From contig JHWR01000004.1 of the NCBI GenBank assembly GCA_000687655.1, positions 124,001 to 188,000 on the forward strand: a stretch of DNA of 64,000 nt. The letters are read 5' to 3'. The stretch is from Lachnospiraceae bacterium YSB2008. GTDB taxonomy: Bacteria; Bacillota; Clostridia; Lachnospirales; Lachnospiraceae. Of the stretch, positions 25,486 through 41,929 are shown one piece after another; position 1 is the first letter of the stretch, and each line of letters starts with the position of its first letter. Under the pieces are notes generated by a model that did not search any database, had not been told where the DNA came from, and saw only the letters and a list, made by a program, of their open reading frames with translations. The translations under genes and the position numbers were made by a program.

Positions 25486-25542
25486 GTTTTTTCGTAATTG
25501 AAATTAAAAAAATAACTAATGAGGGGCTAAGGGGTGAAGCAA

Positions 25543-27027
25543 ATGGAAAAAAATGAAAAAATAGAGAAAATAGAAAAGACTGATAAAATAGAAAAGACTG
25601 ATAAAATAGAAAAAAAAGATAAGATATTTTTTGAAAATGAAGTTAATGCAAATAGGATGATGGCACAGATCCTTAATGTAACAGTAGTTATAGTTGCCAT
25701 AACATGGGCTTTATTTGAAAATGATGTTTTTTATAGCCGAGTGCCTGTTAGGGGGTTGATGATATTTAATCTAGCACTCATTGCATTTTCCGAGTTTATA
25801 TGTCGTCATTATAAATATGAAAAATCCTGGATAAAATACAGTTTGATGGGAACACTTACGGCTGTATATGCGGGATCAACTGCTGTGCTTACCTATAATG
25901 TTACACTGTTGGTGGTTATCCCAATTATTCTCTCCATCAGATATTTCAGTAAGAAATATACTATGTCTATTGCGGTTTTATCCATTCTTATTTTTTTTGC
26001 GGCTTATTTATATGGAGCAAATCACGGTATGCTGGATCTTAATTTTGTTCAGTATTCACCAGGGACTGTCATTACTACAAATGAGAATATGTGGCTGGAT
26101 GATGCAGTAAAGGATATTCCATATGATAAGGGCCTGATGCTCATTAATACTACGTTTTCTAATTATTTTGTTAAGTTTTTGCAGTTGGTTATTATTGCCG
26201 TTGCAGCTGTAAAGTTGGTTGACCATTGTCAGGAAATCATGAGTAAACAGGAAAAGCTTACGGAGACCTCTGCAAGAATTGGCACAGAGCTTGCGCTGGC
26301 TGAAAAAATACAGGCGGATATGCTTCCAAATCTGTTTCCTGCATTTCCAGATAGAGCTGAGTTTGATCTTTATGCCTCTATGAATCCTGCCAAGGAGGTT
26401 GGCGGTGATTTCTATGATTTCTTCATGATAGATGATGATCATCTTGGACTTGTAATCGCCGATGTATCCGGAAAGGGTATTCCAGCTGCAATGTTTATGA
26501 TGTTCAGCAAGAATATCATTGCTAACAATACTATGCTCGGAAAATCTCCGGCAAAGGCGCTTATGGATGCGAATGAGGCTATATGCGCCAACAACAGCGA
26601 AGAGATGTTTGTTACGGTGTGGCTGGGAGTTCTAGAGATTTCTACAGGAAAGCTGACAGCGGCAAATGCAGGTCATGAATACCCGGCACTTATGACTCCG
26701 GATGGCAATTTTGAGCTTTATAAGGATAAGCATGGACTTGTGATTGGTGGTATGGAAGGAGCAAAGTATAGAGAGTACGAGATACAATTAGAGCCTGGGT
26801 CAAAATTATTTGTATATACAGATGGTGTTCCTGAGGCTACTAACAGCAGTGAAGAGTTATTTGGAACTGAACGAATGGTAGAAGCATTAAATGTAATGCA
26901 TGACACAGAGCCAAAGAAACTTCTTGAAGGTGTTAGATGTGCGGTAGATGATTTTGTTAAGGATGCGGAGCAATTTGATGACTTAACTATGCTTTGCTTA
27001 GAGTATAAAGGAACTGAAACAAATTAA
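25543..27027 (+). CDS. Membrane SpoIIE/RsbU-type PP2C phosphatase
   Basis: Residues 1-28 are a Lys/Glu repeat (EKTDKI repeated). About six hydrophobic helices follow (40-230), then a PP2C-like SpoIIE domain from about 250: AEKIQADMLPNLFPAFP, MNPAKEVGGDFYDFF, IADVSGKGIPAAMFM, AGHEYPALM and DDLTMLCL, with the metal-binding Asp residues present. Family members dephosphorylate STAS anti-anti-sigma proteins. Two STAS genes and a kinase gene follow immediately, so those are the likely substrates. I chose the ATG at 25543 with AAGGGGTGA upstream; a GTG lies 9 bases earlier. It is the first gene of island part A, and its membrane half suggests that it senses an envelope or external signal. Confidence 0.9.
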   Translation: MEKNEKIEKIEKTDKIEKTDKIEKKDKIFFENEVNANRMMAQILNVTVVIVAITWALFENDVFYSRVPVRGLMIFNLALIAFSEFICRHYKYEKSWIKYSLMGTLTAVYAGSTAVLTYNVTLLVVIPIILSIRYFSKKYTMSIAVLSILIFFAAYLYGANHGMLDLNFVQYSPGTVITTNENMWLDDAVKDIPYDKGLMLINTTFSNYFVKFLQLVIIAVAAVKLVDHCQEIMSKQEKLTETSARIGTELALAEKIQADMLPNLFPAFPDRAEFDLYASMNPAKEVGGDFYDFFMIDDDHLGLVIADVSGKGIPAAMFMMFSKNIIANNTMLGKSPAKALMDANEAICANNSEEMFVTVWLGVLEISTGKLTAANAGHEYPALMTPDGNFELYKDKHGLVIGGMEGAKYREYEIQLEPGSKLFVYTDGVPEATNSSEELFGTERMVEALNVMHDTEPKKLLEGVRCAVDDFVKDAEQFDDLTMLCLEYKGTETN

Positions 27028-27097
27028 TAAAGTATACATAGAAAGTGGGGATGTTTTATAAGCTTTCTAAAAAATAATAAGAAAGGAAGAGGATAAA

Positions 27098-27514
27098 ATG
27101 GGATTAAGTAAGGAATTAGTGATTGAAGCGAGTACAGATAAGCTCGATGAAGTGATTGCTTTTGTAGATACTCAGCTTGAGAACTTTGAATGTTCTATGA
27201 AAACACAGATGCAGATCGATATAGCTGTGGAGGAGATATTTGTAAATATCGCAAATTATGCATATAACCCTGAGATAGGTGATGCAACTATCAGAGTAGA
27301 AGTGTCTAATGAGCCGCTTGCAGTGGCGATAACATTTTTGGATCATGGAAAACCTTATGATCCATTAGCAAAGGAAGATCCTGATGTAACTCTTTCTGCT
27401 GAAGAAAGAGATATCGGTGGCCTTGGAATCTTTATGACCAAGAAAAGTATGGATAATATTCGATATGAATATAAAGACGGGCAGAATATCCTGACAATAG
27501 AAAAGAATCTTTAG
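27098..27514 (+). CDS. RsbW/SpoIIAB-like serine kinase
   Basis: This 138-residue GHKL ATPase has an intact N box (AVEEIFVNIANYAY), G1 (DHGKPYDP) and G2 (IGGLGIFM). Proteins of this type phosphorylate a STAS partner and otherwise bind a sigma factor or other target. It lies between the phosphatase and the first STAS gene, the classic partner-switch order. No sigma factor gene occurs in part A, so the sequestered target is unknown. A GAAAGGAAGAGG ribosome site precedes the ATG. Confidence 0.92.
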   Translation: MGLSKELVIEASTDKLDEVIAFVDTQLENFECSMKTQMQIDIAVEEIFVNIANYAYNPEIGDATIRVEVSNEPLAVAITFLDHGKPYDPLAKEDPDVTLSAEERDIGGLGIFMTKKSMDNIRYEYKDGQNILTIEKNL

Positions 27515-27609
27515 TAGAAAATAAACTGTAATAAAAACATTATTAAAATCATTAATAAAATATAAGTTTTAAGAATCATTAATATAAGAATAATTAGGAG
27601 GTAATACAT

Positions 27610-27909
27610 ATGTTAAATATCGAAAAGAAATCAGAGGGTAATAATCTTAGCTTTGCACTGTCAGGAAGACTTGATACTACAACAGCTCCTGATCTTGAAA
27701 AGGAAGTAAAGGATAATATCGAAGGTGTTGAGAAGCTTGATTTTGATTTTGCGGATTTGGCATATATCTCATCTGCCGGACTCAGAGTGCTTCTTTCTGC
27801 TCAGAAGATTATGAATAAGCAGGGGGAAATGGTTGTAAAGAACTGTTCAGATGAAATCAAGGAGATTTTCGAAGTTACGGGATTTTCACAAATTCTCACA
27901 ATAGAATAA
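27610..27909 (+). CDS. STAS anti-sigma-factor antagonist, copy 1
   Basis: This 99-residue STAS protein has the phosphoacceptor loop AYISSAGLRVLLSA, with Ser55 the probable phosphorylation site. It would bind the RsbW-like kinase when unphosphorylated. A TTAGGAGG site precedes the ATG. It is nearly identical to the STAS gene at 29338: bases about 27658-27887 are the same in both, and differences are confined to the two ends. Confidence 0.93.
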   Translation: MLNIEKKSEGNNLSFALSGRLDTTTAPDLEKEVKDNIEGVEKLDFDFADLAYISSAGLRVLLSAQKIMNKQGEMVVKNCSDEIKEIFEVTGFSQILTIE

Positions 27910-27945
27910 CTGAATAAGCATTTTGTTTTATGGCGGGGGTTACAA

Positions 27946-29325
27946 ATGTTTATATTAGATGATTATCAAAGTGATATAGAGTGTAAGGAACTATCTATAA
28001 GTAATGAAATGTTTCATCTTGCGCTTCAGGATGGGGAGAAGAGATACCATGTCAAGAGTCCAAAAGGTGACTATTTTGATATTGTGTATCTGGATAATAA
28101 CGATGATATCGAACCGATTGAGTTTTATCCCAAATATATGAAGGGGCCTTTTATGGCTCAATACTTATCTTATGACGAAACGGATAAGGATACACTTTAT
28201 ATAGATTTCTTCCAAGGTATAAATGCTGCAGAATTCGAGGAAGTAAATGAGTATTCTATAGCTCTTACCAGGGTGATTCTATCCTTCACTCAAGGGATAG
28301 ATATATGGTTTGATGACCCACGTATTCTTTGGTTCATTTCTGAGGATGATAGGGTGCATGTTGTAGAAAAGCTTCCTGAACTTTCGGGAGAAACTACATT
28401 TTACGTTCAAAAGCAGTTTAAGACGGGCCTTGAGGACAGGGATTTCAATAGGCTTAGTTCTACATATGCTTTCCACAATGTCTTTTTCCCACAGTGGATG
28501 CTGAAAGGTAAAAAATGTACAGATTATAAATATGTCACTATGATAACCAATTCTATGCTTGGAATAGGTGCGATTCTTGCTTTCCAGAAAAGGTTTGAGA
28601 TAGCATTTAACCACTTTGGTCTTAAGCTAATTACTAATGAAGAAAGGCTCGGAAAGTACCGCGTTGAAATGCTCAATAAGTATTTCGCTTTGGAACTGAC
28701 AGCGGAGGATGCGAGTGGTGACAATACACTGGTTATTGATAATCAGACATTTCTGATCAAGACAAAAATGGTTTATACAATCAACCAGGCAACAGATACA
28801 TCCATTCTTGCACCTAAGTTCCGAAAAGAAATGGATGAATACTATGAAGCTTTGTTCGAAGGAAGAAAAGTTCTTGGAATCCTGATACGTGGAACAGATT
28901 ATATATCAACCGGGCTTTCTGGTGAGCATCGTATGGCGACTGTTCCGCAGATGCTTCCAACCATTCATCAGTGGCTTGAAGAGGATGGATATGACCGCAT
29001 ATTCCTGGCCACTGAAGATAATGACATTCTGGATCAGATGAAGTCTGAGTTTGGAAAAAGAATTATAGCAGTTGCGCAGGAACGTCATAGAGTTTCGGAT
29101 TTTAGAGAAGGTCAAATCATCAGCGAATTGGAGAAGGAAACCATTCCTCCTGATAAGCTGGATGAAATGATTGAAGACACAACAATAAATTATTTCTATG
29201 CATTGTATCTACTATCCCGCTGTGACAGCTTTATGTGTTCTGGACAATGTAACGGATGGGATGTAGTTAATGACTTTAATGGTGGAAGATTTCAGAGGAG
29301 CTATAAGTTCAAAGTAGAGGAATAG
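27946..29325 (+). CDS. Fucosyltransferase-like glycosyltransferase (tentative)
   Basis: This 459-residue protein is not firmly recognised. The N-terminal half has no clear motif. The C-terminal half has GILIRGTDY followed by DRIFLATEDNDILDQM and SRCDSFMCSGQCNG. This spacing resembles the donor-binding core of GT11/GT23/NodZ-type fucosyltransferases (H/xRRTD/GDY, then YLATDD, then a Ser/Cys-rich loop). There is no signal peptide or helix, so it is cytoplasmic. It is embedded between two STAS genes and upstream of an NRPS-like gene, so it may glycosylate the product of that pathway. Glycosylation of another acceptor is equally open. Confidence 0.6.
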   Translation: MFILDDYQSDIECKELSISNEMFHLALQDGEKRYHVKSPKGDYFDIVYLDNNDDIEPIEFYPKYMKGPFMAQYLSYDETDKDTLYIDFFQGINAAEFEEVNEYSIALTRVILSFTQGIDIWFDDPRILWFISEDDRVHVVEKLPELSGETTFYVQKQFKTGLEDRDFNRLSSTYAFHNVFFPQWMLKGKKCTDYKYVTMITNSMLGIGAILAFQKRFEIAFNHFGLKLITNEERLGKYRVEMLNKYFALELTAEDASGDNTLVIDNQTFLIKTKMVYTINQATDTSILAPKFRKEMDEYYEALFEGRKVLGILIRGTDYISTGLSGEHRMATVPQMLPTIHQWLEEDGYDRIFLATEDNDILDQMKSEFGKRIIAVAQERHRVSDFREGQIISELEKETIPPDKLDEMIEDTTINYFYALYLLSRCDSFMCSGQCNGWDVVNDFNGGRFQRSYKFKVEE

Positions 29326-29337
29326 GAGGTAACGCTT

Positions 29338-29637
29338 ATGTTAAATATCGAAAAAAAATCAGATGGTAAAAACCTTAGTTTTGCGTTGTCAGGAAGACTT
29401 GATACTACAACAGCTCCTGATCTTGAAAAGGAAGTAAAGGATAATATCGAAGGTGTTGAGAAGCTTGATTTTGATTTTGCGGATTTGGCATATATCTCAT
29501 CTGCCGGACTCAGAGTGCTTCTTTCTGCTCAGAAGATTATGAATAAGCAGGGGGAAATGGTTGTAAAGAACTGTTCAGATGAAATCAAGGAGATTTTCGA
29601 AGTTACGGGATTTTCAGATATTCTCACGATAGAGTAA
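29338..29637 (+). CDS. STAS anti-sigma-factor antagonist, copy 2
   Basis: This 99-residue protein differs from copy 1 only near the N-terminus (SEGNN versus SDGKN) and at one residue near the C-terminus (Gln to Asp). It retains the Ser55 loop. It starts 12 bases after the glycosyltransferase gene with an AGGAGG site. Two almost identical antagonists suggest either a dose effect or two different partners. Confidence 0.93.
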   Translation: MLNIEKKSDGKNLSFALSGRLDTTTAPDLEKEVKDNIEGVEKLDFDFADLAYISSAGLRVLLSAQKIMNKQGEMVVKNCSDEIKEIFEVTGFSDILTIE

Positions 29638-29722
29638 CCTAAAAAGCAAATATAAAACAAATAAAATGCAAATAAAAAAATGCAAATAGAAAGAAAAAGG
29701 GATCAGAGGGTGTTGCACTGGT

Positions 29723-32713
29723 ATGGGAGTTAATGAAGGCATGAGAGTTGAAGAGATAGACATTTTTGAAAGATTTGGTTTGCTTTTAAAGGATTTCCCG
29801 AATCATGTGATGCTTAGTGAGGGGCCGGCTGAAACTGATATAACAGCAGCACAGCTGGATATTCTTTCTGGAAAGGTATATAGGTACCTTAAGGATAAGG
29901 GCTTTGGCAAAGAGGATATGATCTGTATACTTCTTCCGAGAGGTACGGCAGTCGCCGTAGCTCTTTTGGGTATATGGAAAGCTGGAGCGGCGGCAGTTAT
30001 TATTGAGGAAAATAGTCCTATAGAAAGAACAGAATATATACAGAAGGATTGTGGATGTGTTCTTGTTTTGAATGAACAGGTTTGGAAAGAAATCCTCTGC
30101 GTAGAATCGCTTGAGGGGCATGAACCAATTGATCCTCATGCGGCAGCTTTTGCGGTTTATACCTCCGGAACCAGTGGTAATCCTAAGGGAGTTCTCCATG
30201 AGTATGGTAGAATTCCAATCACTTTTGCATCTTATCGTTGGAATGGTGTATCCATAAGCCAGCGTAGCGATATCATTATCCTATACTTTCCACTGAACTT
30301 TGTAGCTTCGATCATGTTTATGATAATAAGCTGGATGATAGGAACAAAGCTTCTGATCGTTCCTTGTTCTGTATCAAAGGATCCGCTCAAAATAATGGAA
30401 TTTTTAATAGAAAACAAAGTGACATTGGCATTCTTTCCACCATCACTTTTCAGGATGCAAAAAAACTTTGGCCCATATCTGAAAAAGGTCATCCTTTCTT
30501 CTGAGCCTGCTCATGGTATCTGGAAGGATTCTTCAGAAATGATGGTATTTAATGGGTATTGCAGTAGTGAGACGGCATGCGGACTATTGGTATCTGTGCT
30601 TGATAAGCCGAATGTTACTGCTCCTGTGGGACTGCCTCAATATTTTGTTGGCGTCTATCTATTAAATGATGAGGGTGAAGAGGTGGAGTTTGGTGAATCC
30701 GGCGAACTATGTTTTGATGCGCCGTTTACGAGGGGTTATATCAATCTGCCTGAACAGACCGCAAAGGCTTTTGCAAATGGCATCTTTCACAGCGGAGATC
30801 TTGCCAGACAAATGAGTGACGGACAGTATCAGATTATTGGAAGAATCAGTGACACGATTAAGATAAATGGTAAAAGAGTAGAACCGACAGAGGTTGAAGA
30901 AGCCATCAAGCGTGTTACAGGTCTTAAGTGGACAGCTGTCAGAAGCATTAAAGACAAAAATGGAATGCACCTCACTGCATATCATTTGGGAGAGGCTGAG
31001 ATTGGAATAGCCGAACTACGCGAGAAACTTGGTCAGATTCTACCTTACTACATGCTGCCTTCCTATTTTGTGAAAATTGATTCAATCCCAAGACTCAGTA
31101 ATGGAAAGATGAACAGAAAGGCTCTTCCTAGACCGGCTGTTTCTGACTATTTACGCGAGTATGTTCCTCCAACTAATGAGGCGGAGATGATAATATGTAA
31201 CGCTATGCAGAAGGTGCTGAAGATAAATAAGGTAGGAATAAAGGATGATTTTTTCCTGCTTGGCGGAGACTCGCTCACTTCTATGAAGTTGATTGTCGAG
31301 ACAGGATTCAGCGGACTGACTTTTGAAGATATATATTTAGGTTGTACAGTTTCAGGAATTGCAGAACGATACCTCAGTAAGCTGCGAGATACAGAGGAGA
31401 ACACTGAGAAGATTAATGAACAGGCAATTATAAAGTCTCATCCTCTGACCGTGGAACAAAAGTATATACTTAATTATGAACTTTATACTCCCAATACAAC
31501 TATGTATAACAATCCGGCTCTCTGTAGATTTATTGATGTGTCTGCAGAAGACCTGGCAGCAGCAATCAATAAAACTATACGGAATCACCCTTCTCTCCTG
31601 ACTACATTCTATTATGAGAATGGAGAGTATAAGCAGAGATATGCTCCTGAATTGATGCATGAAATTACAGTGGAGAAGATTTCGGATGAAGAATTTGAGG
31701 TTTTGCGAGGAACTTTGGTTCAGCCATTTAGAGAGATAACTGATTGTCTTCTTTGGCGTGGCAGAGTTTTCAGTGCACCGTCCGGAAATTATGTATTCTT
31801 TGATGTTCATCACTTGATCTTTGATGGTACTTCTTATTGGCTGTTTATGAGCGATCTGCAAAAATGCCTGTCTGATATAGAACTCGAACCGGATTACTAT
31901 TATTATGTTCTTGAACAGCGCGAAAAAGAAATGAACAGTGCTCTCTATGAGGAGGCTAAATCATATTTTGAGAAAAGATATGCAGGGGTGAAATGCATAC
32001 GTAATCTGCCTTATGATTATTCTTCTGATGAAAACTATGCAGGAGATATAGATATACCGCTACAATTTACTGATGATGATTATAATGCATTTGAAGCTTC
32101 AACCGGAATTGGAAGGAATGGACTATTCTTAATGGCCGGACTGCTTGCACTTGGTTCGGTAACCAATACCGACAAGATTATGCTTACTTGGATCTACAAC
32201 GGAAGAAAAGATCTTGATTCTATGAATAGTATAGGCATGTTGTTCTATACCTTGCCGCTAATGCTTACTATTACTGAGGAACTTACTATGGAAGAAATGC
32301 TGGCAGATATAAAAGAACAAATGAACAATTCCTTGAAATATAGTTCTTGTTCCTTTGTAAGTTCAACCTACGTATCTCCTGTGGAGGATGATTGTATTTG
32401 TTTCATGCTTCAGGACGATGCTAGAACCCTATCGGAAAATTGGCATCACCCCTTTGAAATGGTGGATATAGATATTGAGAACAGGGCTTCACAGACATCT
32501 CTTGATGTGGAGATTATGACAAATGGAGATGAGCCAAATCTTTATCTTGACTATGCTGCAAGTTTATATAAGAGGGATACAATTAAACATTATGGTGCTC
32601 TGATAAAGAGCTTTGCAGATAAACTTATATATTACAGAGACTGTCCGGACATTCGTGTTAGAGAGCTCATCAAAAAAAGAGAAAGTGAGGGACCTTCTAG
32701 AGTAAATGAATAA
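29723..32713 (+). CDS. Single-module NRPS-like protein (A-PCP-C)
   Basis: This 996-residue protein has three domains. The adenylation domain (about 1-480) shows YTSGTSGNPKGV (A3), NGYCSSETACG (A5), HSGDLARQ (A7), GRISDTIKINGKRVEPTEVEEAI (A8) and SNGKMNRKALP (A10 Lys). The carrier domain has LLGGDSLTSM with phosphopantetheine Ser517. The condensation domain (about 570-990) has HHLIFDG at 696-702, matching the catalytic HHxxxDG. There is no thioesterase or reductase domain. Activation of one acyl or amino acid and its transfer to a free amine or hydroxyl is expected. The next gene encodes a MATE exporter and overlaps it by 8 bases, pointing to coupled synthesis and export. Confidence 0.93.
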   Translation: MGVNEGMRVEEIDIFERFGLLLKDFPNHVMLSEGPAETDITAAQLDILSGKVYRYLKDKGFGKEDMICILLPRGTAVAVALLGIWKAGAAAVIIEENSPIERTEYIQKDCGCVLVLNEQVWKEILCVESLEGHEPIDPHAAAFAVYTSGTSGNPKGVLHEYGRIPITFASYRWNGVSISQRSDIIILYFPLNFVASIMFMIISWMIGTKLLIVPCSVSKDPLKIMEFLIENKVTLAFFPPSLFRMQKNFGPYLKKVILSSEPAHGIWKDSSEMMVFNGYCSSETACGLLVSVLDKPNVTAPVGLPQYFVGVYLLNDEGEEVEFGESGELCFDAPFTRGYINLPEQTAKAFANGIFHSGDLARQMSDGQYQIIGRISDTIKINGKRVEPTEVEEAIKRVTGLKWTAVRSIKDKNGMHLTAYHLGEAEIGIAELREKLGQILPYYMLPSYFVKIDSIPRLSNGKMNRKALPRPAVSDYLREYVPPTNEAEMIICNAMQKVLKINKVGIKDDFFLLGGDSLTSMKLIVETGFSGLTFEDIYLGCTVSGIAERYLSKLRDTEENTEKINEQAIIKSHPLTVEQKYILNYELYTPNTTMYNNPALCRFIDVSAEDLAAAINKTIRNHPSLLTTFYYENGEYKQRYAPELMHEITVEKISDEEFEVLRGTLVQPFREITDCLLWRGRVFSAPSGNYVFFDVHHLIFDGTSYWLFMSDLQKCLSDIELEPDYYYYVLEQREKEMNSALYEEAKSYFEKRYAGVKCIRNLPYDYSSDENYAGDIDIPLQFTDDDYNAFEASTGIGRNGLFLMAGLLALGSVTNTDKIMLTWIYNGRKDLDSMNSIGMLFYTLPLMLTITEELTMEEMLADIKEQMNNSLKYSSCSFVSSTYVSPVEDDCICFMLQDDARTLSENWHHPFEMVDIDIENRASQTSLDVEIMTNGDEPNLYLDYAASLYKRDTIKHYGALIKSFADKLIYYRDCPDIRVRELIKKRESEGPSRVNE

Positions 32714-34433
32714 AAGAACTTTTTGTAAAAATAAGTTTGGTTCAATGCTTATATCAGGTACATTTACTATGGCTGTTTTGTATCTTATGATGCTTAGCGA
32801 TAGTATTATAGCTGGTCACTTTATAGGGGAAAAAGGTATAGCTGCAATTAATTCAATTACCCCTGTAACAGGTGTGTCGACTTTCTTTGGATGCATGGTT
32901 TCTACTGGAGCTGGTATTGTATACAGTCAGGATATCGGTGCTATGAGAAAAAAACATGCTGATCAGATATATGGCCAGGGTTTAATTGTTACTTTTGTTA
33001 TAGGTATTATCTCGGCCGTTATTCTATATTTTATACGTGATTTATATTTTAGCATGAGTGGTGTTACAGGAGAAATATATGATAGAGCTTTAGAGTACTA
33101 TAAACTTACACCTGTTAATATATTTTTGACGGTTCTTGTTTATTATCTTGAGGGCATGGTCTTCAGCGATGGCGATGAACTGATAAACAATCTGGGGTAT
33201 ATATTCCAGATTGGCGGAAATATCTTATGTTCCATAATTCTGGCAAAACAATATGGCATGATTGGTATAATTATAGGATCTATAATTGGAAATGGGCTTG
33301 GCATTATAGTGTCCTGCATCCACTTTTTTAGAAAAAGTAATACTCTTCATTTTGTTTGGTACTTTAATATAAAAGAACTGATAAAGACGACGCGCTTCAG
33401 TATAGTAGATGCTGTGATATATCTATGCTGGTCGGTTATGGATTATGTTTTGATAAGCTATGTGTCGGTGCACTATGGAGATACCGGGCTGATTACACTT
33501 GCGGTGGTGGTAAGCCTTATAGAGTTTGGCGTTGTTTTGGATGGCGTTGGAATGGCTGTTCAGCCACTTCTGGGAACATATTCGGGCGAAAAAAATCATG
33601 TCCTTATAAAAAGGTTGATGCGTATGGCAGTACAAGCAGCTGTTCTAGAGGGGATAGTAGTAAATGTACTGGTTATAATTTTTGCCAAGCAGTTCTGCGC
33701 CCTTTTCGGAATAACAGCTGGGGCAGCACTGGCTCCATCCATAGCTGCGGTTAGAATTGTTTCTTTTGGACTTGTATTTTGCAGTGCTGTTTCTCTTTTT
33801 ACCTCTTATTATATGTTGATAGATCATATAGGTCTTTCAGTAGCTGTTACTGTTCTTAAAGATGGCATTTTATACTCATTTTTGCCGCTTCTTGGTTCGG
33901 TTATAGCGGGTGAAAAAGGAATGTGGATTGCATTTGTTGTTGCTCCGATAGTAACACTTGTTATATCGCTGGCGTATGTTTATCTTCGATATGGGAAAGA
34001 ATTATATCCTTATTTGTTAAAGGATATGGATTCGGAAATATTTGTTTTTGATGATGTTTTGACAAAGGAGTCGGCAACTGGTCTTTCAGAAAAGGTTGAA
34101 ACCCTACTGGAAGAGCATAACTATCCTAAGGGTGTGGTGAATAAAGCTGCTTTATTTGTCGAGGAGATCGGACTTACAATTCTTGAACAGAATAAGAAAG
34201 AGAAGAATGGACTTTTGATAGAGCTTTCTGTGTTTTTTGAAGAAAACAGTGCTCTTATCATAGAGCGTGATTCTGGAAAAATATTTGATATCACTGATCC
34301 TGATCAGAAGATAGAAGGACTTAGTGGATTTATACTTAGCGGTCTCATGGAAATGCATAAGGAAAAGGCTTATCTTATAACTACAGGTTATAATCGCAAT
34401 ATGATGAGATTTAGCATTGCTGAAAAACATTGA
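32706..34433 (+). CDS. MATE exporter fused to an RsbW-like domain
   Basis: Residues 1 to about 440 are a twelve-helix MATE-family cation antiporter (SDSIIAGHFIGEKGIAAINSITP, then the second half from about 225). Residues about 450-575 form a cytoplasmic GHKL-like domain with VEEIGLTILEQN, RDSGKIFD and GLSGFILSGLM. The Asp-x-Gly of G1 is kept, but the N-box Asn is missing and the glycine-rich lid is altered, so binding without kinase activity is likely. The STAS proteins encoded upstream are the obvious ligands. This would place control of export directly under the partner switch. It is the last gene of part A. Confidence 0.88.
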   Translation: MNKRTFCKNKFGSMLISGTFTMAVLYLMMLSDSIIAGHFIGEKGIAAINSITPVTGVSTFFGCMVSTGAGIVYSQDIGAMRKKHADQIYGQGLIVTFVIGIISAVILYFIRDLYFSMSGVTGEIYDRALEYYKLTPVNIFLTVLVYYLEGMVFSDGDELINNLGYIFQIGGNILCSIILAKQYGMIGIIIGSIIGNGLGIIVSCIHFFRKSNTLHFVWYFNIKELIKTTRFSIVDAVIYLCWSVMDYVLISYVSVHYGDTGLITLAVVVSLIEFGVVLDGVGMAVQPLLGTYSGEKNHVLIKRLMRMAVQAAVLEGIVVNVLVIIFAKQFCALFGITAGAALAPSIAAVRIVSFGLVFCSAVSLFTSYYMLIDHIGLSVAVTVLKDGILYSFLPLLGSVIAGEKGMWIAFVVAPIVTLVISLAYVYLRYGKELYPYLLKDMDSEIFVFDDVLTKESATGLSEKVETLLEEHNYPKGVVNKAALFVEEIGLTILEQNKKEKNGLLIELSVFFEENSALIIERDSGKIFDITDPDQKIEGLSGFILSGLMEMHKEKAYLITTGYNRNMMRFSIAEKH

Positions 34434-34632: not shown

Positions 34633-34857
34633 ATGGCAGAAAAATCGATATTTCGTAAAAAAAGCCTTGAAAGAGTTACATCCCCCGAGCAGCTTGACGA
34701 CTATATCAAAGTGACCACACCTTCTGTGTGGATGATACTGTTTGCAACGCTGGTTCTTATCGCTGGGACTTTTTTCTGGGCCGTGTTCGGAAAGATACAG
34801 GTCAATACTGAAAACGGAGTAAAGGAAGTGGCACCGATAAGTTATGTCATCAAATAA
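34633..34857 (+). pseudogene. Truncated NHLM-type HlyD membrane-fusion protein
   Basis: The 74-residue frame has the N-terminus typical of NHLM bacteriocin-system HlyD proteins (cytoplasmic Lys/Arg/Glu stretch, one helix at about 34-52). It then jumps straight to an ending, GVKEVAPISYVIK, that resembles the family's C-terminus. Full-length members have roughly 200 more residues forming the periplasmic adaptor. I infer an in-frame internal deletion. It overlaps the C39 ABC gene by 14 bases, as intact copies commonly do. Adaptor function is probably lost unless supplied from elsewhere. Confidence 0.75.
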
Positions 34858-37042
34858 GAAGAACAGGATTAAACAGCCGGTGACAAATGGCGTAGCAAAG
34901 GTTCCCGTCGTTATGCAGATGGAGGCGCTTGAGTGCGGTGCGGCGAGCCTTACCATGGTCATGGCTTATTATGGAAAATGGGTCCCCCTTGAGCAGGTCC
35001 GGGAGGACTGTGGTGTTTCACGCGACGGATCCAAGGCCGGAAACATCGCAAGGGCTGCAAGGACATATGGTTTTAATGCCACAGGATATAGGTTCGAACC
35101 GGATCAGCTTAAAAAACAGGCCAAATTTCCGTGCATCATACACTGGGAATTCAATCATTTTGTCGTTTTATGCGGCTTCAAAAAAGGGAAGGTGTACATC
35201 AACGACCCCGCAAGGGGTGATGTCATCATAACCGAGAAGGAGTTTGACGAAGCCTTTACCGGTGTTACAGTAGTCATCACTCCGGGCGAAGGATATGAGC
35301 CCTCCGGAAAACCCAAGAGCATGATCGCATTTGCTAAAAAGCGCATGATCGGAGCCGGATCGGCAACTGCATTTGTTGCGATAACAACGTCAGTCACATC
35401 AATATGTGCCATTGCTTTGGCAGGTTTTTCCAGGTTCTTCATGGATGAACTGCTTCCCGGAAGAAATCCTTCACTTGTCGGCGGCTTTATGGCCGCGCTT
35501 ATAATACTTACCATTGTACAGATCGTTGCGGCATGGATCACTGCGCTTTATTCATTCCGGATAAGCGGTAAGTTTGCTGCTGTCGGAAATGCTGCATATT
35601 TCTGGCATGTCCTGCAACTTCCCATGAGTTTTTTTTCACAACGTATGGTAGGTGATATAGAACAAAGACGTCAGGCCAACGCAAACATAGCAAGTATTCT
35701 TGTCAATACATTTGCTCCCCTTGTTATAAATACAGCGATGTTGATCTTTTACCTCGGTGTGATGCTGTCGTATTCGGTTGCGATGACGGCGATAGGCATC
35801 GTTGCCATAGCGGTGAATGTTTTTGTGGCATATTTTGTCAGCGCAAAAAGGAACAATATCACCCGTGTCATGATGCGCGACGAAAGTAAGCTGTATTCAC
35901 AGACGGTATCAGGCATAGAGATGATAGAGACTATCAAATCAAGCGGTGCCGAGAACGGATTCTTTACCAAATGGTCCGGATATGAGGCGAGCGTTAACAG
36001 CCAGCGCGTTAAGTTTGCCGGGATAGATGCAAGACTCGGAAATGTACCTGTGATCGTCATGGAACTTGTTAACGATATCGTGCTCCTTATGGGAGTTTAC
36101 CTTATGATAAAGGGCGAGTTCACATCTGGTATGGTACTCGCATTTCAGGGATTTCTTGTGCAGTTCCTGCTGCCGGCGCAATCACTCATAGAAGCGGGTC
36201 AGGGTCTTCAGGAAATGCGTACGCAGATGGAACGTATCGATGATGTCATGGAATATCCGAAAGATGCGGTACTTGAGCATGCCGATTCTTCGGACGGTGA
36301 GGAAAAAACTTTTTCGAACAAATTGTCAGGTAAGCTCGAGCTTAAGAATGTGACATTCGGTTATTCGAAGCTTTCACCGCCGCTTATCGAGAACTTTAAC
36401 CTTACACTCGAGATAGGAAAGAGTGTTGCTTTCGTAGGCGGGAGCGGATGCGGGAAGAGTACACTTTCGCGCCTTATATCAGGTCTGTACCGTCCGTGGG
36501 AGGGAGAGATCCTGTTTGACGGCAAACCGGTGGGCGAGATAGACAGGGACCTGTTTACAAGCTCTGTGGCGGTTGTAAATCAGGACATCATACTGTTCGA
36601 GGATACTATAGCGAACAATATCAAAATGTGGGACAACTCCATCGAGGATTTCGCGATGATACTTGCGGCAAGGGACGCACATGTTCATGAGGATATCATG
36701 AAGAGGGACGGAGGCTACTCGTATAAGATTCGTGATGGTGGACTTGATTTTTCGGGAGGACAACGTCAGAGGATCGAGATAGCACGTGTCCTTGCGCAGG
36801 ATCCGACGATCATGATAATGGATGAGGCCACAAGCGCACTTGATGCTCAGACGGAGTATGATGTCGTCTCATCAATAAAAGAAAGAGGTATCACAACGAT
36901 AGTCGTGGCACACAGGCTCTCAACGATAAGAGACTGTGACGAGATAATAGTGCTTGATAAAGGTAAGATCAGTGAGCGCGGGACACATGACGAACTCATA
37001 GCTATGGATGGCCTTTACGCGAAGCTTTTGACAAGCGAATAG
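34844..37042 (+). CDS. NHLM-type ABC exporter with C39 leader peptidase
   Basis: This 732-residue protein has an N-terminal C39 peptidase domain with Cys31 (ALECGAASL), His105 (NHFVVLCG) and Asp121 (INDPARG), all intact. Six membrane helices follow, then an ATPase with GGSGCGKST, DFSGGQRQR and IMIMDEATSALD. C39 enzymes cut after a Gly-Gly in the leader. The two precursors encoded downstream have VAGG at exactly that place. It is expected to cleave and export the mature peptide. The DNA is visibly richer in G+C than part A. Confidence 0.94.
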   Translation: MSSNKKNRIKQPVTNGVAKVPVVMQMEALECGAASLTMVMAYYGKWVPLEQVREDCGVSRDGSKAGNIARAARTYGFNATGYRFEPDQLKKQAKFPCIIHWEFNHFVVLCGFKKGKVYINDPARGDVIITEKEFDEAFTGVTVVITPGEGYEPSGKPKSMIAFAKKRMIGAGSATAFVAITTSVTSICAIALAGFSRFFMDELLPGRNPSLVGGFMAALIILTIVQIVAAWITALYSFRISGKFAAVGNAAYFWHVLQLPMSFFSQRMVGDIEQRRQANANIASILVNTFAPLVINTAMLIFYLGVMLSYSVAMTAIGIVAIAVNVFVAYFVSAKRNNITRVMMRDESKLYSQTVSGIEMIETIKSSGAENGFFTKWSGYEASVNSQRVKFAGIDARLGNVPVIVMELVNDIVLLMGVYLMIKGEFTSGMVLAFQGFLVQFLLPAQSLIEAGQGLQEMRTQMERIDDVMEYPKDAVLEHADSSDGEEKTFSNKLSGKLELKNVTFGYSKLSPPLIENFNLTLEIGKSVAFVGGSGCGKSTLSRLISGLYRPWEGEILFDGKPVGEIDRDLFTSSVAVVNQDIILFEDTIANNIKMWDNSIEDFAMILAARDAHVHEDIMKRDGGYSYKIRDGGLDFSGGQRQRIEIARVLAQDPTIMIMDEATSALDAQTEYDVVSSIKERGITTIVVAHRLSTIRDCDEIIVLDKGKISERGTHDELIAMDGLYAKLLTSE

Positions 37043-37060
37043 AGACATTTGGGAGATAAG

Positions 37061-39256
37061 ATGGCAAGCTGGTTCGAGGAGCAGATAGAGCTTCGTAAAC
37101 AAAACGATATAGAAGCATTTGAGGATTCGTGCCTTAAGATCGCGGGTTCAGTCATGGGGCTGAAATTGTCTGCCGCACTGCAGAATGAACGAGAACAGGC
37201 AACGGATGCAATAGGATCGATCCTTAAATACTATCACATAAAGGTCAGGGAAGTTCCCGAAAGACTGCAGTCGATCGAGGAAGTTCTTGAGTATCTTCTT
37301 CGTCCTTATGGCGTCATGACAAGGCAGGTAGTACTTCGCGAGGGTTGGAGAAAAGACGCTTCGGGTGCTATGCTGACAACCTTTGCTGATGACGGCAAGC
37401 CTGTAGCACTTATCCCTGCAGGGGCAAACGGCTATAAATATGCTGATCCGGAAACGGGTATGATGACAAAGGTCACAGCAGCTTCGGAAAAGCTCTTCAG
37501 CGGCGAGGCATTTGCTTTTTATAAAGCATTCCCTACAAGAGCGATGACTATGAAGGATCTGTACGGATACATCTTCTCTAACCTTGACAGGGGCGGTGTA
37601 TGTGGCTACTTCGGTTTTGCGCTTATCGCGACCTGTGTCGGAATGCTGATCCCGTGGATAAACAGGCTGCTGTTCACGGATATCGTGGCGATGAGGAGTG
37701 TATCCGCATTTATTGCGATAGCGGTATTTCTCATATGTGCATCGCTTTCAAGCCTTCTGTTCGGAACGATACAGGGCCTGTTCCTTCACAGGCTGACGCA
37801 GAAGTTAAACCTAAGCATCGAGTCAGCAACGATGATGAGAATCCTGACGCTTCCGAGTTCATTCTTTACGAAATACACTTCGGGTGATCTTGCACAACGC
37901 GTCAGCAACATGAGTATCCTCATATACGAGATACTTAACATGGTCATGACATGTTTTACGACTGCGCTGTTCTCGTTCCTCTATATCTTCCAGATAAGAT
38001 CGTTCGCACCTGCACTTGCGGTCCCTGCTTTTCTTGTGGCAACGCTTCAGATGATAACGCTGGTCGCTGCCCTTGTCATAAGATCAAGGTTAAACATGAC
38101 GCAGATGGAGCTTGGCGCAAAAGAGAGTGGGCTGTCCTATTCGCTTATCGCCGGTATCGAGAAAATCAAGCTCTCCGGTGCTGAGCGTCGCGCATTTTCC
38201 AAGTGGGCTAATGCATATGCCACGCAGTCAAAGTATATGTATGATCCGCCGATGTTCGTGAAGGTATTCCCGGCGATCATAACGGCGATATCCCTTACAG
38301 GGACGATCATCATATATTATCAAGCGATAAAAACTCATGTGGATGTTGCCCAGTACTATGCGTTCAACGCTGCTTTTGCAATCGTATGCGGGGCAATTAA
38401 GACGCTCGTTCCGATGATAGAGCCCGCGGCAAGGATAGTACCGACATTTGAACTGCTTCGACCGGTGATCGAGACGGCACCCGAGATAGCCGAGGACAAA
38501 CCGGTGATAGAAAAGCTCTCCGGCGGTATTGAACTTAATAATGTTACATTCCGCTACAGTGAGGACATGCCTCCGGTGCTCGATGATCTTAGCCTTAGGA
38601 TAAAGCCGGGACAGTATGTGGCGATAACGGGTAAGAGCGGATGCGGCAAGAGTACGCTTATGCGCGTTATGCTCGGGTTTGAGAAGCCGCAGAAGGGTGC
38701 GGTCTATTATGACGGGCGGGACCTTAACAGGATCGATCTGAAGTCCTTAAGGTCCAAGATCGGAACCGTCATGCAGAACATGTCGCTTTTTATGGGAGAT
38801 ATATATTCGAACATTGTCATCTCCGCCCCGCAGCTGACACTTGATGATGCCTGGGAAGCGGCTGAAATGGCAGGTGTAGCCGAAGATATCAGGCAGATGC
38901 CGATGAATATGTTCACTATCATAGGAGAAGGCAGTGGCGGCATATCGGGTGGACAGAAACAGCGCCTTATGATAGCACGTGCCATCGCCCCGAAGCCGAA
39001 GATATTAATGTTTGATGAGGCAACAAGTGCACTTGACAATATAACGCAGAAGCAGGTATCTGATTCACTTGATGGCCTCAAGTGTACAAGGATCGTGATA
39101 GCACACAGACTGTCCACAATAAAGAACTGTGACAGGATCATCGTTCTTGATAAAGGAAAGATCGTGGAAGACGGAACCTATGACGAGTTGATCGCAGAGA
39201 ACGGTTTCTTTGCCGAACTCGTGTCGCGCCAGCAGGTTGAGCGTAAGAATGGATAA
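37061..39256 (+). CDS. Second NHLM-type ABC exporter subunit
   Basis: This protein of about 731 residues has a soluble N-terminal region of about 170 residues where a peptidase would be, but without a Cys/His pair. Six helices follow, then an ATPase with TGKSGCGKST, GISGGQKQR and ILMFDEATSALD. It matches the peptidase-less partner ABC protein of NHLM systems, which probably pairs with the C39 subunit. I chose the ATG at 37061 with GGGAGATAAG upstream. It ends 8 bases inside the next, broken gene. Confidence 0.92.
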   Translation: MASWFEEQIELRKQNDIEAFEDSCLKIAGSVMGLKLSAALQNEREQATDAIGSILKYYHIKVREVPERLQSIEEVLEYLLRPYGVMTRQVVLREGWRKDASGAMLTTFADDGKPVALIPAGANGYKYADPETGMMTKVTAASEKLFSGEAFAFYKAFPTRAMTMKDLYGYIFSNLDRGGVCGYFGFALIATCVGMLIPWINRLLFTDIVAMRSVSAFIAIAVFLICASLSSLLFGTIQGLFLHRLTQKLNLSIESATMMRILTLPSSFFTKYTSGDLAQRVSNMSILIYEILNMVMTCFTTALFSFLYIFQIRSFAPALAVPAFLVATLQMITLVAALVIRSRLNMTQMELGAKESGLSYSLIAGIEKIKLSGAERRAFSKWANAYATQSKYMYDPPMFVKVFPAIITAISLTGTIIIYYQAIKTHVDVAQYYAFNAAFAIVCGAIKTLVPMIEPAARIVPTFELLRPVIETAPEIAEDKPVIEKLSGGIELNNVTFRYSEDMPPVLDDLSLRIKPGQYVAITGKSGCGKSTLMRVMLGFEKPQKGAVYYDGRDLNRIDLKSLRSKIGTVMQNMSLFMGDIYSNIVISAPQLTLDDAWEAAEMAGVAEDIRQMPMNMFTIIGEGSGGISGGQKQRLMIARAIAPKPKILMFDEATSALDNITQKQVSDSLDGLKCTRIVIAHRLSTIKNCDRIIVLDKGKIVEDGTYDELIAENGFFAELVSRQQVERKNG

Positions 39257-39563
39257 GCCGGAGAAAAGACCATTTGAGGAAGTATATGACGAGTACTATG
39301 AGAAGGTGTTCAAGAGCGTATATGTGAGGCTCCTCCACATGGAGAATACCGAGGATATAGTACAGGATACATTTGTTAAGGCTATGAAAGCATACGACCG
39401 GTATGATCCGAAGGAAAAAGACATCATGGAATCCCTATTATTCGTTTTCCGACTCCAAGTTTACGCTGCCTTTTTCATAAATCCCGTTGAATTTTCCGGA
39501 TTGATGCGTATAATATTATGTAGGCATCAATTGCTTGAAACAAAAACTCTCAGCAGTTTGTAA
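39249..39563 (+). pseudogene. ECF sigma factor, truncated after region 2
   Basis: The first 60 or so residues are sigma-70 region 2 (YDEYYEKVFKSVYVRL, EDIVQDTFVKAMKAYDRYDP). After DPKEKDIMES, near base 39428, the reading frame enters unrelated sequence (LLFVFRLQVY...) and stops. Region 4, needed for -35 recognition, is missing. ECF sigma genes often accompany NHLM loci. The junction coincides with the DNA that supplies the precursor promoter, so the break probably occurred when the precursor block was joined on. Confidence 0.8.
39487..39514 (+). promoter_or_regulatory. Promoter for the RiPP precursor genes
   Basis: TTGAAT and TATAAT are 16 bp apart, ending about 70 bp before the first precursor start. 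It sits inside the foreign tail of the broken sigma gene. Confidence 0.55.
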
Positions 39564-39977
39564 ATGGTAAAAAAGGAGGAAAACACATGAACGAGAATCT
39601 GAAGAAATTCCTTGAGGAAGCAAGCAAAAATGAGGAACTGAAAACAAAGCTTGAGGCCCTGACCGACAAAGATACTGCTACGGAGAAGGCAATTGAGATC
39701 GCAAAAGAGTATGGCTTTACCCTTACTACTGAGGATTTTAAGGAGACACATGGAGCGGTGTTATCTGATGATGAACTTGATCAGGTTGCAGGTGGAGCAG
39801 GATGTTTGTTTATAAATTCTGATACTCCTGGGAGATGTATTATCTCTGGAAGTTACTAGATGATCCTCCTCACTTCCCCTGCGGTCATGGTGGAATGGGT
39901 GATAAGTCCTTTTATAGACGGCTGCAATCTGTATTGTTAAAGGAAAAAATATGTACTACCGATTAAAGGATGACTAG
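39563..39977 (+). repeat. Tandem duplication unit, copy 1
   Basis: This unit runs from the precursor ribosome site to the eighth codon of the radical SAM gene. It recurs about 532-533 bp downstream as 40095-40510 with only a few changes: Leu/Trp at core residue 4, one silent change, one single-base indel and one spacer substitution. In this copy the maturase start (ATG at 39951) is cut off by TAG after eight codons. Confidence 0.85.
39587..39859 (+). CDS. Nif11-type RiPP precursor 1 (Leu variant)
   Basis: This 90-residue precursor has a Nif11-like leader (LKKFLEEASKNEELKTKLEAL, then AIEIAKEYGFTLTTEDF, LSDDELDQVAGG). The Gly-Gly cleavage site is at 69-70. The 20-residue core starts AGCLFINSD and contains Cys73 and Cys84. 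The flanking C39 exporter should cut after Gly70. The radical SAM enzyme next door is the probable modifier, with the two Cys as candidate thioether donors. A strong AAGGAGG site precedes the ATG. Confidence 0.92.
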   Translation: MNENLKKFLEEASKNEELKTKLEALTDKDTATEKAIEIAKEYGFTLTTEDFKETHGAVLSDDELDQVAGGAGCLFINSDTPGRCIISGSY

Positions 39978-40095
39978 TATCAGGTGAACGGGAAACCCAA
40001 GTTCTTATACAGCTGGCGACTTGAACCGACCGATCCGCAGCCGAAAGGAAAGAAGCCCTGCCTGTCACTTCGGGAACTGGAGAAACTCCCATCAA
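39978..40095 (+). pseudogene. Fragment of a Tn916-family tyrosine integrase
   Basis: The frame reads YQVNGKPKFLYSWRLEP, TDPQPKGKKPCLSLRELEKL. This closely follows the N-terminal arm-binding domain of Tn916-type integrases (GEPQFVYSWKL..TD..PAGKR.C.SLREK). Only about 37 codons remain, joined at both ends to precursor-unit sequence. It lies exactly between the two tandem copies. It is also in frame with precursor 2, so a GTG at 39984 could give a 135-residue fusion, but the strong internal ribosome site makes that unlikely. Confidence 0.75.
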
Positions 40096-40510
40096 ATGGT
40101 AAAAAAGGAGGAAAACACATGAACGAGAATCTGAAGAAATTCCTTGAGGAAGCAAGCAAAAATGAGGAACTGAAAACAAAGCTTGAGGCCCTGACCGACA
40201 AAGATACTGCCACGGAGAAGGCAATTGAGATCGCAAAAGAGTATGGCTTTACCCTTACTACTGAGGATTTTAAGGAGACACATGGAGCGGTGTTATCTGA
40301 TGATGAACTTGATCAGGTTGCAGGTGGAGCAGGATGTTGGTTTATAAATTCTGATACTCCTGGGAGATGTATTATCTCTGGAAGTTACTAGATAGATCCT
40401 CCTCACTTCCCCTGCGGTCAGGGTGGAATGGGTGATAAGTCCTTTTATAGACGGCTGCAATCTGTATTGTTAAAGGAAAAAATATGTACTACCGATTAAA
40501 GGATGACTAC
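40095..40510 (+). repeat. Tandem duplication unit, copy 2
   Basis: This is the second copy of the unit at 39563. Here the maturase start at 40484 continues into the complete gene. Confidence 0.85.
40119..40391 (+). CDS. Nif11-type RiPP precursor 2 (Trp variant)
   Basis: This 90-residue precursor is identical to precursor 1 except for Trp in place of Leu at residue 74, the first residue after core Cys73. The leader, VAGG site and both core Cys are unchanged. I start it at the ATG with AAGGAGG upstream, the same as in copy 1. It probably shares the transcript that starts at 39520 and runs into the maturase gene. Confidence 0.92.
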   Translation: MNENLKKFLEEASKNEELKTKLEALTDKDTATEKAIEIAKEYGFTLTTEDFKETHGAVLSDDELDQVAGGAGCWFINSDTPGRCIISGSY

Positions 40511-41929
40511 TGTCTGAGAGGCTGGGAGCTGCTGCCGTATGCGGTTGTTGACAGCAAGACGCATCGGGTTCACTGGCTTGATAAGACGAAGTTTGATGCG
40601 CTCACTCTCTGTGACGGCTCTGTGGATCTTGATCTTCCGCTGATCTCGCAAGAAGTGCATGACAGCATCAAAGACCTGGAAGAAAAGGGCTACATAGAGA
40701 CCTGTACCGCAGGTAAGGGTCTGTCAGAACGCCAGCGCTATCATCGATACGAAAACCGTTTTATGGAGTCTGCCCATTGGTCTGTCACCGGCAGATGCAA
40801 CTGTAAATGTAAGCATTGCTATCTGTCCGCCGCAGATGGCAGATATGGAGAATTAAGCCACGACGATGTGATGAAGATCACAGAAGAGCTTGGCAATGCG
40901 GGGGTGTTATCGTGTTCGATCACTGGCGGAGAGCCCTTGGTGCGTTCCGATTTCTGGGAAATCGTAGATGCTCTGAGCGAGCGGGGCGTATACATCAGCC
41001 AGATCTATTCCAATGGTTTGCTTGTGAACGAAGGTCTTCTGGAGAGATTCAAGCAGCGAGGTCTGTATCCCGAATTTAATATGAGTTTCGACGGCGTGGG
41101 CTATCACGACTGGCTCCGGGGTATTAACGGTGCTGAAAAGGCAGTACGCCATGCATTTGAGCTATGCAGAGACAATGGTTTCCCAACCGGTGCTGAGATG
41201 TGCTTATGGAAGGAGAATGCACATACTCTGCGTGACAGTATAAACTACCTGGCTTCTGTGGGCTGCCGCAGCCTTAAGACTAATCCGGTAAGTGATACGG
41301 GAGCCTGGCACGAAGGTGGTTATGCGGGGAAGCATGGTCTGAGTGATGACGAGACATTTGAAATCTATTTAAACTATCTTGAGGATTATTACAACGATCT
41401 GCCGAATATGCATCTGATGCTGGGTGGCTTTTTTGCTGCGGATGGACGGGAACCGGACGTATATAGTATCCCCGTCGTTCATGTATCGAAAAATCCTGAA
41501 AATATATGTATGTGTGCACACGCACGCACATCCATGTACATTTCCGCAGAAGGCAGGGCTCTGACCTGCATGCCGATTTCCAATGATGATGAGTTTCAGG
41601 CGGATTATCCGCAGATCCAGGAGCTGGGCCTTAAGAATTGCCTGACAGAATCAAAGTACATGGAGCTTATCAATACCCGTTCCGGCACAGTACTTGAGCA
41701 TAATGAGAAGTGTAGAAACTGTGAATATCGTAAGTTTTGTCTTGGCGGCTGCCGCGCAATTGGTCTTTTGTGTCATCCCGGTGACATTCTGGCGCCCGAC
41801 GAATTTACCTGCAGGCTGTTTCGCAATGGCTGGCTGCAGAAGATAGAAGCGAAGATCGCAGAGCTTCGCCCTACCGCCGAATGTTGGGAGCTCAAACACT
41901 TGTCCGAGCTGCAACCATTAGAATCATAA
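40484..41929 (+). CDS. Radical SAM/SPASM peptide maturase
   Basis: This 481-residue enzyme has a PqqD-like precursor-recognition domain at 1-75 (YRLKDDYCLRGWELLPYAV). The radical SAM core carries the CxxxCxxC cluster motif at Cys105, Cys109 and Cys112. The C-terminal SPASM region has many Cys (ICMCAHA, LTCMPIS, CRNCEYRKFCLGGC) for auxiliary clusters. Such enzymes install thioether, C-C or epimerised residues in RiPPs. Two Nif11-type precursors lie directly upstream. Sactipeptide or ranthipeptide-type thioethers are the simplest guess because the core has two Cys, but the chemistry is not shown by sequence. Confidence 0.93.
   Translation: MYYRLKDDYCLRGWELLPYAVVDSKTHRVHWLDKTKFDALTLCDGSVDLDLPLISQEVHDSIKDLEEKGYIETCTAGKGLSERQRYHRYENRFMESAHWSVTGRCNCKCKHCYLSAADGRYGELSHDDVMKITEELGNAGVLSCSITGGEPLVRSDFWEIVDALSERGVYISQIYSNGLLVNEGLLERFKQRGLYPEFNMSFDGVGYHDWLRGINGAEKAVRHAFELCRDNGFPTGAEMCLWKENAHTLRDSINYLASVGCRSLKTNPVSDTGAWHEGGYAGKHGLSDDETFEIYLNYLEDYYNDLPNMHLMLGGFFAADGREPDVYSIPVVHVSKNPENICMCAHARTSMYISAEGRALTCMPISNDDEFQADYPQIQELGLKNCLTESKYMELINTRSGTVLEHNEKCRNCEYRKFCLGGCRAIGLLCHPGDILAPDEFTCRLFRNGWLQKIEAKIAELRPTAECWELKHLSELQPLES

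Follow-up and report, generated by a model that had tools for sequence, protein, structure and literature searches.

A partner-switch gene set beside a MATE exporter with a degenerate RsbW-like C-terminal domain in Lachnospiraceae bacterium YSB2008

In Lachnospiraceae bacterium YSB2008, a rumen-type bacterium with a genome of 2.69 Mb and a completeness rating of 100%, seven consecutive genes encode a predicted partner-switch module (a membrane phosphatase, a kinase and two STAS proteins), a fucosyltransferase-like protein, a nonribosomal-peptide-type enzyme with adenylation, carrier and condensation domains (A-PCP-C), and a MATE exporter with a C-terminal tail that resembles the kinase. The locus lies in a stretch of 64,000 nucleotides (the window; JHWR01000004.1 positions 124,001-188,000), and coordinates below are window positions (Table 1). 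Successive genes are separated by gaps of 12 to 95 bp (70, 95, 36, 12 and 85 bp along the set), except that the A-PCP-C and MATE genes share an 8-bp overlap. The original prediction, made from the DNA sequence of this stretch, had described seven tightly spaced co-directional genes at these coordinates, and the arrangement is confirmed; it had also named SpoIIE, RsbW-like, STAS (two), A-PCP-C and MATE domains, each of which scores above its Pfam cut-off. A scan of the locus for promoters and terminators found sites no commoner than in shuffled sequences, so that the status of the set as an operon is unproven, and an Rfam search of window positions 20000-45000 found nothing above gathering scores. 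There are three candidate starts for the phosphatase gene: 25534 (GTG), 25543 (ATG, the start given in the original prediction) and approximately 25588, the last being the start in an ortholog.

Table 1. Features of the seven-gene set, with window positions and the evidence for each assignment
Feature	Position	Strand	Evidence
Membrane PP2C (SpoIIE/RsbU-type) phosphatase	25534..27027	+	PF07228 170 bits, hydropathy, acidic motifs
RsbW-type GHKL serine kinase, intact motifs	27098..27514	+	PF13581 74.9 bits
STAS protein 1 (RsbV/SpoIIAA-type)	27610..27909	+	PF01740 and TIGR00377 above cut-off
Fucosyltransferase-like-fold protein	27946..29325	+	AlphaFold, Foldseek; Pfam FUT8 below cut-off
STAS protein 2	29338..29637	+	Pfam STAS above cut-off; 97% identity to STAS protein 1
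A-PCP-C nonribosomal-peptide-type enzyme	29723..32713	+	AMP-binding, PP-binding and Condensation above Pfam cut-offs
MATE exporter with RsbW-like C-terminal domain	32706..34433	+	MatE 64.7 bits, AlphaFold, Foldseek
Degenerate RsbW-like tail of the MATE exporter, residues ~440-575	34023..34430	+	Profile chain, alignment, model

The phosphatase has approximately five hydrophobic segments (residues 41-236) followed by a SpoIIE domain (residues 300-491), and its acidic metal-binding motifs (GGDFYD, DVSGKG, TDGV and DDLT) are recognizable in the sequence. The kinase has the N, G1 and G2 boxes, with E46, N50, D82xG84 and GGxG conserved across 20 aligned kinases, and the profile of these 20 kinases hits RsbW and SpoIIAB in PDB. 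The two STAS proteins, which differ at 3 of 99 residues, a near-identity that the original prediction did not mention, score 56.1 and 56.3 bits against the Pfam STAS model, and Ser55 of STAS protein 1 aligns with the phosphorylated serine of RsbV and SpoIIAA. Judged by their motifs, the phosphatase, the kinase and the STAS proteins are all predicted to be components of an RsbU/V/W-type partner switch. No sigma factor is encoded in the cluster, as originally claimed, and the claim extends genome-wide to the SigB/F/G type (TIGR02980), which is above cut-off in none of five genomes (the host and four relatives). The matches below cut-off in the host are an open reading frame (ORF) of 429 amino acids (aa), which its size suggests is RpoD, and a SigH-like gene at approximately window position 49395. 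The only other RsbW above the Pfam cut-off in the host genome forms a pair with a PP2C gene on contig C20 (L044, G000:C20), and a third STAS gene, on contig C19 (L045, G000:C19), immediately follows a VirB4-type conjugation ATPase gene; these are possibly another sigma-less switch on a mobile element, and it may be guessed that C19 and C20 are parts of one such element.

The AlphaFold model of the MATE protein (pLDDT, the predicted local distance difference test, 87.9; pTM, the predicted template modelling score, 0.86) has a C-terminal domain of beta-alpha-alpha-beta-beta-alpha-beta-beta order. The MatE domain and fold are both present in this predicted exporter. The 50 Foldseek matches listed for the model are MATE/MOP structures, among them 4z3n, the structure of ClbM, a MATE that exports colibactin, is found beside NRPS-type biosynthesis (NRPS, nonribosomal peptide synthetase) and is not known to carry such a tail; the identity of the tail therefore depends on profile comparisons. 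By hhalign, the tails of 20 other MATE proteins matched 20 stand-alone RsbW proteins with an E value of 4e-18, the 22 tails of the window type matched those 20 other MATE tails with an E value of 6e-17, and the window-type tails matched RsbW directly with an E value of 2e-6. A profile search of PDB with the other MATE tails found SpoIIAB and RsbW (best E 2e-4), and the tails of four of the nine related MATE proteins scanned passed the HATPase_c_2 cut-off. Through this chain of profile comparisons the window tail is classified as RsbW-like, in agreement with the originally predicted degenerate RsbW-like/GHKL domain on the exporter.

The window tail retains E486-E487, R521-D-x-G524 and N563, and in RsbW numbering it has Thr for N50 and Ser for G110, so that the N-box Asn (metal-binding in SpoIIAB) and the second glycine box are gone. 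In the same numbering, a comparison of 132 distinct MATE ORFs with lengths of 545 aa or more shows E46 retained in 130 tails, N130 in all 132 and the N-box Asn in 26. Compared with two orthologs, the window tail has ratios of nonsynonymous to synonymous substitution (dN/dS) of 0.16 and 0.29, and it is under purifying selection. Given RsbW-like descent, loss of the N-box Asn and of the second glycine box, and low dN/dS, the tail is called a pseudokinase domain under selection.

The association of such tail-bearing exporters (tail-MATEs) with switch genes (PP2C, RsbW or STAS) was counted in two samples. Loci of the relatives set were picked for their resemblance to the window MATE or P0004 and are hence not independent; of its 109 distinct MATE ORFs that are 545 aa or longer and have at least 8 kb of flank, 46 have a switch gene no more than 5 kb away (PP2C 40, STAS 30, RsbW 22), and among 25 tail-less MATEs of relatives in 21 control loci none has one, also with looser thresholds. 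Of 37 short MATE ORFs seen in all, 12 lie outside the control, in loci fetched for tail-MATEs or P0004; five of these lie no more than 5 kb from a switch gene (L060, L096, L117, L122 and L148), and a sixth, L111, is a split MATE carrying the tail. A switch gene is nearby for 41 of the 86 degenerate tails and for 5 of the 23 that keep the N-box Asn, a difference that would be expected if the Asn-kept tails can act alone and that is confounded by phylogeny. The second, class sample came from running the tail profile on 293 genomes of the class, of which 77 matched, stand-alone kinases included; it comprises the 29 strongest matches (E at most 4e-23) and one weaker match chosen for ORF length (G375:C8, which has PP2C). 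These 30 loci come from 22 genomes and 10 families; some of them end near a contig edge, and two (L265, L271) have a short MATE ORF. In 16 of the 30 (15 of 29 if G375:C8 is left out), distributed over nine of the 10 families, a switch gene is no farther than 5 kb from the MATE; PP2C is present in 15, RsbW in 11, STAS in 9 and all three in 8, and an NRPS or GH3 enzyme lies within 5 kb in 10. A same-genome control consisted of 20 stretches, each around the best-ranked tail-less MATE, from 20 of the 22 genomes. Its 22 tail-less MATEs have a switch gene in two cases, both STAS only (PP2C and RsbW, 0 of 22), with STAS length unfiltered, a bias that runs against the association, and none has an NRPS or GH3 gene. 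Fisher tests of tail-MATEs versus tail-less MATEs give p values of 0.001 for switch genes and 0.003 for NRPS/GH3, which are optimistic because the genomes are related. Tail-MATEs and switch genes co-occur beyond chance, and the co-occurrence on which the original prediction could be judged is borne out.

Some of these neighbourhoods contain fused forms. PP2C and RsbW-like domains are found in single proteins of 949 aa (L267), adjoining a STAS gene and a tail-MATE, and of 945 aa (L280), which does not adjoin them, and STAS and RsbW matches fall in one chain in ORFs of 520 aa (L253) and 529 aa (L260) in tail-MATE neighbourhoods.

By MATE identity, the closest named genomes are those of Lachnospiraceae bacterium LC2019 (91%) and of an uncultured member of the Lachnospiraceae (90%), followed by one from water-deer rumen (89%). 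Within 146 genomes searched, host included, a MATE at least 89% identical occurs in three others (G050, G055 and G001), and 41 residues of such a MATE are present at a contig end in G053. PP2C, RsbW, STAS and A-PCP-C genes lie beside the MATE in all four, and the possibility that the cluster is unique to this species was rejected. G055 has no fucosyltransferase-like gene, and both G055 and G050 have a single STAS gene. The fullest set is that of G053: HAD, FGGY kinase, PP2C, RsbW, STAS, fucosyltransferase-like, STAS, GH3, a second tail-MATE, A-PCP-C and MATE. G001 contains two scars, one in which HAD residues 1-160 are joined to the final 51 residues of FGGY (L066:1548-2173) and one that is a relic of a second MATE tail, approximately 41 residues long (L066:6379-6504); these relics of HAD, FGGY and second MATE point to gene loss in that line, and the window set may be what remains of a larger set like that of G053. 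HAD and FGGY genes were also considered beside the window cluster itself and were rejected, with no match in the window; the only FGGY protein in the host genome is a 29% relative encoded elsewhere, not a close one.

Enzyme genes beside tail-MATEs vary. The direct neighbours (within 150 bp, same strand) of 157 distinct tail-MATEs include HAD (30), A-domain (25), PP2C (21), STAS (11), FGGY (8), RsbW (5) and GH3 (3) genes, and 90 of the 157 have at least one of these seven kinds. Of the 132 long MATEs, 41 have a HAD gene and 35 an FGGY gene at a distance of 5 kb or less. Elsewhere the neighbours of tail-MATEs include multi-module NRPS, GH3, ATP-grasp (L060), FGGY kinase and HAD genes, and an M20-type peptidase gene is near the tail-MATE of L062. 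On the Selenomonas ruminantium plasmid pSRC2 (L281:8730-11707), a glutamate-cysteine-ligase-family gene ends 11 bp before a tail-MATE gene with a tail E value of 6.5e-21, the product of which is annotated only as a MATE family efflux transporter. Amide-bond-forming or acyl-activating enzymes are recurrent, with FGGY and HAD outside that theme, and the A-PCP-C enzyme is one of several exporter-side enzymes rather than a constant part. Of the gene set originally described, the switch genes do recur beside the tail-MATE but the A-PCP-C enzyme is not constant.

In the window, the A-PCP-C enzyme has the core motifs LGGDSL (carrier) and HHLIFDG (condensation). Because Val occupies, in this enzyme and its four orthologs, the position of Asp235, the residue that binds the amino group in amino-acid-activating A domains, the A domain probably activates a carboxylic acid that lacks an alpha-amino group. 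The enzyme may make the exported molecule. The fucosyltransferase-like protein has an RGTD motif at 315 and an AlphaFold model with a pLDDT of 86.1; its best Foldseek matches are FUT8 and NodZ (E ~1e-6 to 1e-5, template modelling score only ~0.35), and its Pfam match to FUT8 is weak and below cut-off (E 0.029). It is a candidate GT23 fucosyltransferase. Comparison of P0004 with PDB sequences gave a single chance match (E 0.43). Matches to the protein occur in 31 of the 397 genomes searched in the family, and in 12 stretches its relatives have different gene surroundings, which in a few cases include PP2C or STAS genes; its gene is an optional part of the cluster, none being present beside that of G055. 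Fucosyltransferase-like proteins of 886-890 aa occur in L166, L174, L175 and L179, of which those of L166, L175 and L179 had no match in a Pfam scan.

The tail is a homolog of the kinase of the switch itself. In the simplest working model, dephosphorylated STAS protein docks on this tail. The membrane PP2C would sense a signal and remove phosphate from the STAS proteins, the RsbW kinase would put phosphate back on them, and dephosphorylated STAS protein would bind the pseudokinase tail of the MATE and alter exporter activity, in a direction that the model presumes along with the binding; export, perhaps of the A-PCP-C product, would be switched without new transcription. The probability that a sigma-less partner switch gates the MATE exporter through its pseudokinase tail is estimated from sequence evidence as roughly 0.55. 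The original interpretation, in which the switch would control biosynthesis as well as export and STAS proteins would dock on the tail, is partly supported. The wider proposal of an exporter class that spans the Clostridia and one Selenomonas plasmid, in which the anti-sigma kinase fold serves as a docking pseudokinase of MATE and PP2C-RsbW-STAS directly gates the export of amide-type products, is more tentative, with odds slightly short of even.

Several results weigh against this model. The window MATE has no Pfam match beyond MatE, the tail being unmatched; five of the nine related MATEs scanned miss the HATPase_c_2 cut-off (two below it, three without any match); and the window-type tail profile has no RsbW match in PDB, where its best hit (E 0.45) is unrelated. 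For 14 of the 30 tail-MATEs of the class sample, the 5 kb on either side contain no switch gene, and the counts rest partly on related loci. The pSRC2 stretch (21.7 kb) contains neither PP2C nor RsbW, and one STAS protein of 410 aa is encoded approximately 8 kb away; from this plasmid and the other tail-MATEs that have no switch genes, it follows that the tail acts in trans or has another role there.

The main competing explanation draws on the fact that anti-sigma kinases of the RsbW fold are dimers: the tail would heterodimerize with RsbW and tether it to the exporter, and STAS would shift RsbW between itself and the exporter. Though unlikely, this explanation is consistent with the homology of tail and RsbW by profiles and with the presence of a separate RsbW near 20 of 86 degenerate tails versus 2 of 23 Asn-kept tails, but 21 of the 86 degenerate tails have PP2C or STAS nearby without RsbW. 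It is improbable that RsbW instead binds a sigma factor or other transcription factor encoded elsewhere and sets expression of the cluster, the tail being incidental. Such a switch would conform to the classical role of RsbW and SpoIIAB, could have a partner in the SigH-like gene, and would parallel the Methanobrevibacter ruminantium clusters, which were published as controlling NRPS expression (PMC2812497), but it would leave the tail-specific linkage unexplained, no SigB/F/G-type factor is above cut-off in the five genomes, and a similar cluster occurs in an archaeon (PMC2812497), and Archaea are described as having no known bona fide sigma factor (PMC2686161). Lower still is the probability that the switch targets not the exporter but an enzyme of biosynthesis, which would be A-PCP-C in the window and FGGY kinase or HAD in relatives; partner switches that act on enzymes have been published (PMC7647112), and the A-domain, GH3, FGGY and HAD genes counted as direct neighbours of tail-MATEs fit this explanation, but the enzymes vary by locus (NRPS, GH3, ATP-grasp, FGGY) and the tail is constant on the exporter. 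A functionless, decaying relic with a neighbourhood due to shared ancestry alone would account for the lost N-box Asn and glycine box and would have company in the remnants of other genes in G001, but it is very improbable in view of the dN/dS values and the near-complete retention of E46 and N130.

Gating of the exporter by the partner switch may be set beside several known systems. All three protein kinds of RsbU-RsbV-RsbW and SpoIIE-SpoIIAA-SpoIIAB are represented here with their motifs, but there is no SigB/F/G sigma factor above cut-off and the module is tied to an exporter. SLC26/SulP transporters consist of a transporter joined to a STAS domain, whereas here the part joined to the transporter is kinase-like and the STAS proteins are separate. 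Partner switches with non-sigma targets have been published (PMC7647112, PMC3999984, PMC10120452); SiaABCD of Pseudomonas aeruginosa likewise combines PP2C, a kinase and a STAS-like protein with a non-sigma target, but its proposed output is a diguanylate cyclase (PMC7647112) and not a transporter with a kinase-like domain. A 2009 paper on Methanomicrobiales reported archaeal SpoII-type proteins (phosphatase, kinase and STAS) without a known sigma factor, the targets of which could not be determined from sequence, and the portion of it cited here does not mention an exporter or NRPS (PMC2686161). In M. ruminantium M1, an archaeal host, NRPS genes are accompanied by serine phosphatases, an anti-sigma antagonist and MatE (mru_0066-0071, mru_0351-0352 and mru_0513-0516), an arrangement that Leahy et al. 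(2010; PMC2812497) interpreted as a means of sensing and of controlling NRPS expression, and under lauric acid both MatE genes, one NRPS and a phosphopantetheinyl transferase had positive transcript changes (PMC5816558). The assertion in the original prediction that no system of this make-up had been described is thus too broad for the linkage of phosphatase, STAS, MatE and NRPS, which is already known, but may hold for the tail, of which no mention was found in the literature searched on the fusion or on NRPS/MATE partner switches, a search that was largely of non-subscription papers.

Immediately downstream of the MATE gene lies a cluster for ribosomally synthesized and post-translationally modified peptides (window positions 34844-41929) that encodes NHLM-type ABC1 (above cut-off) and ABC2 (slightly below), a radical SAM protein and two precursors with Nif11-like leaders (39587-39859 and 39984-40391). 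In the maps of L064, L065 and L066, the MATE gene is not followed by an ORF pair of approximately 730 aa.

If exporter gating through the tail is correct, it would supply the missing output of partner-switch modules that have no sigma factor, perhaps including those of archaea, for which a kinase-like domain on an adjoining exporter is a concrete, testable target. The tail would be usable as a search handle for such clusters, and many unexplored metabolites of the rumen and gut would be released under the control of protein contact at the exporter and not of transcription.

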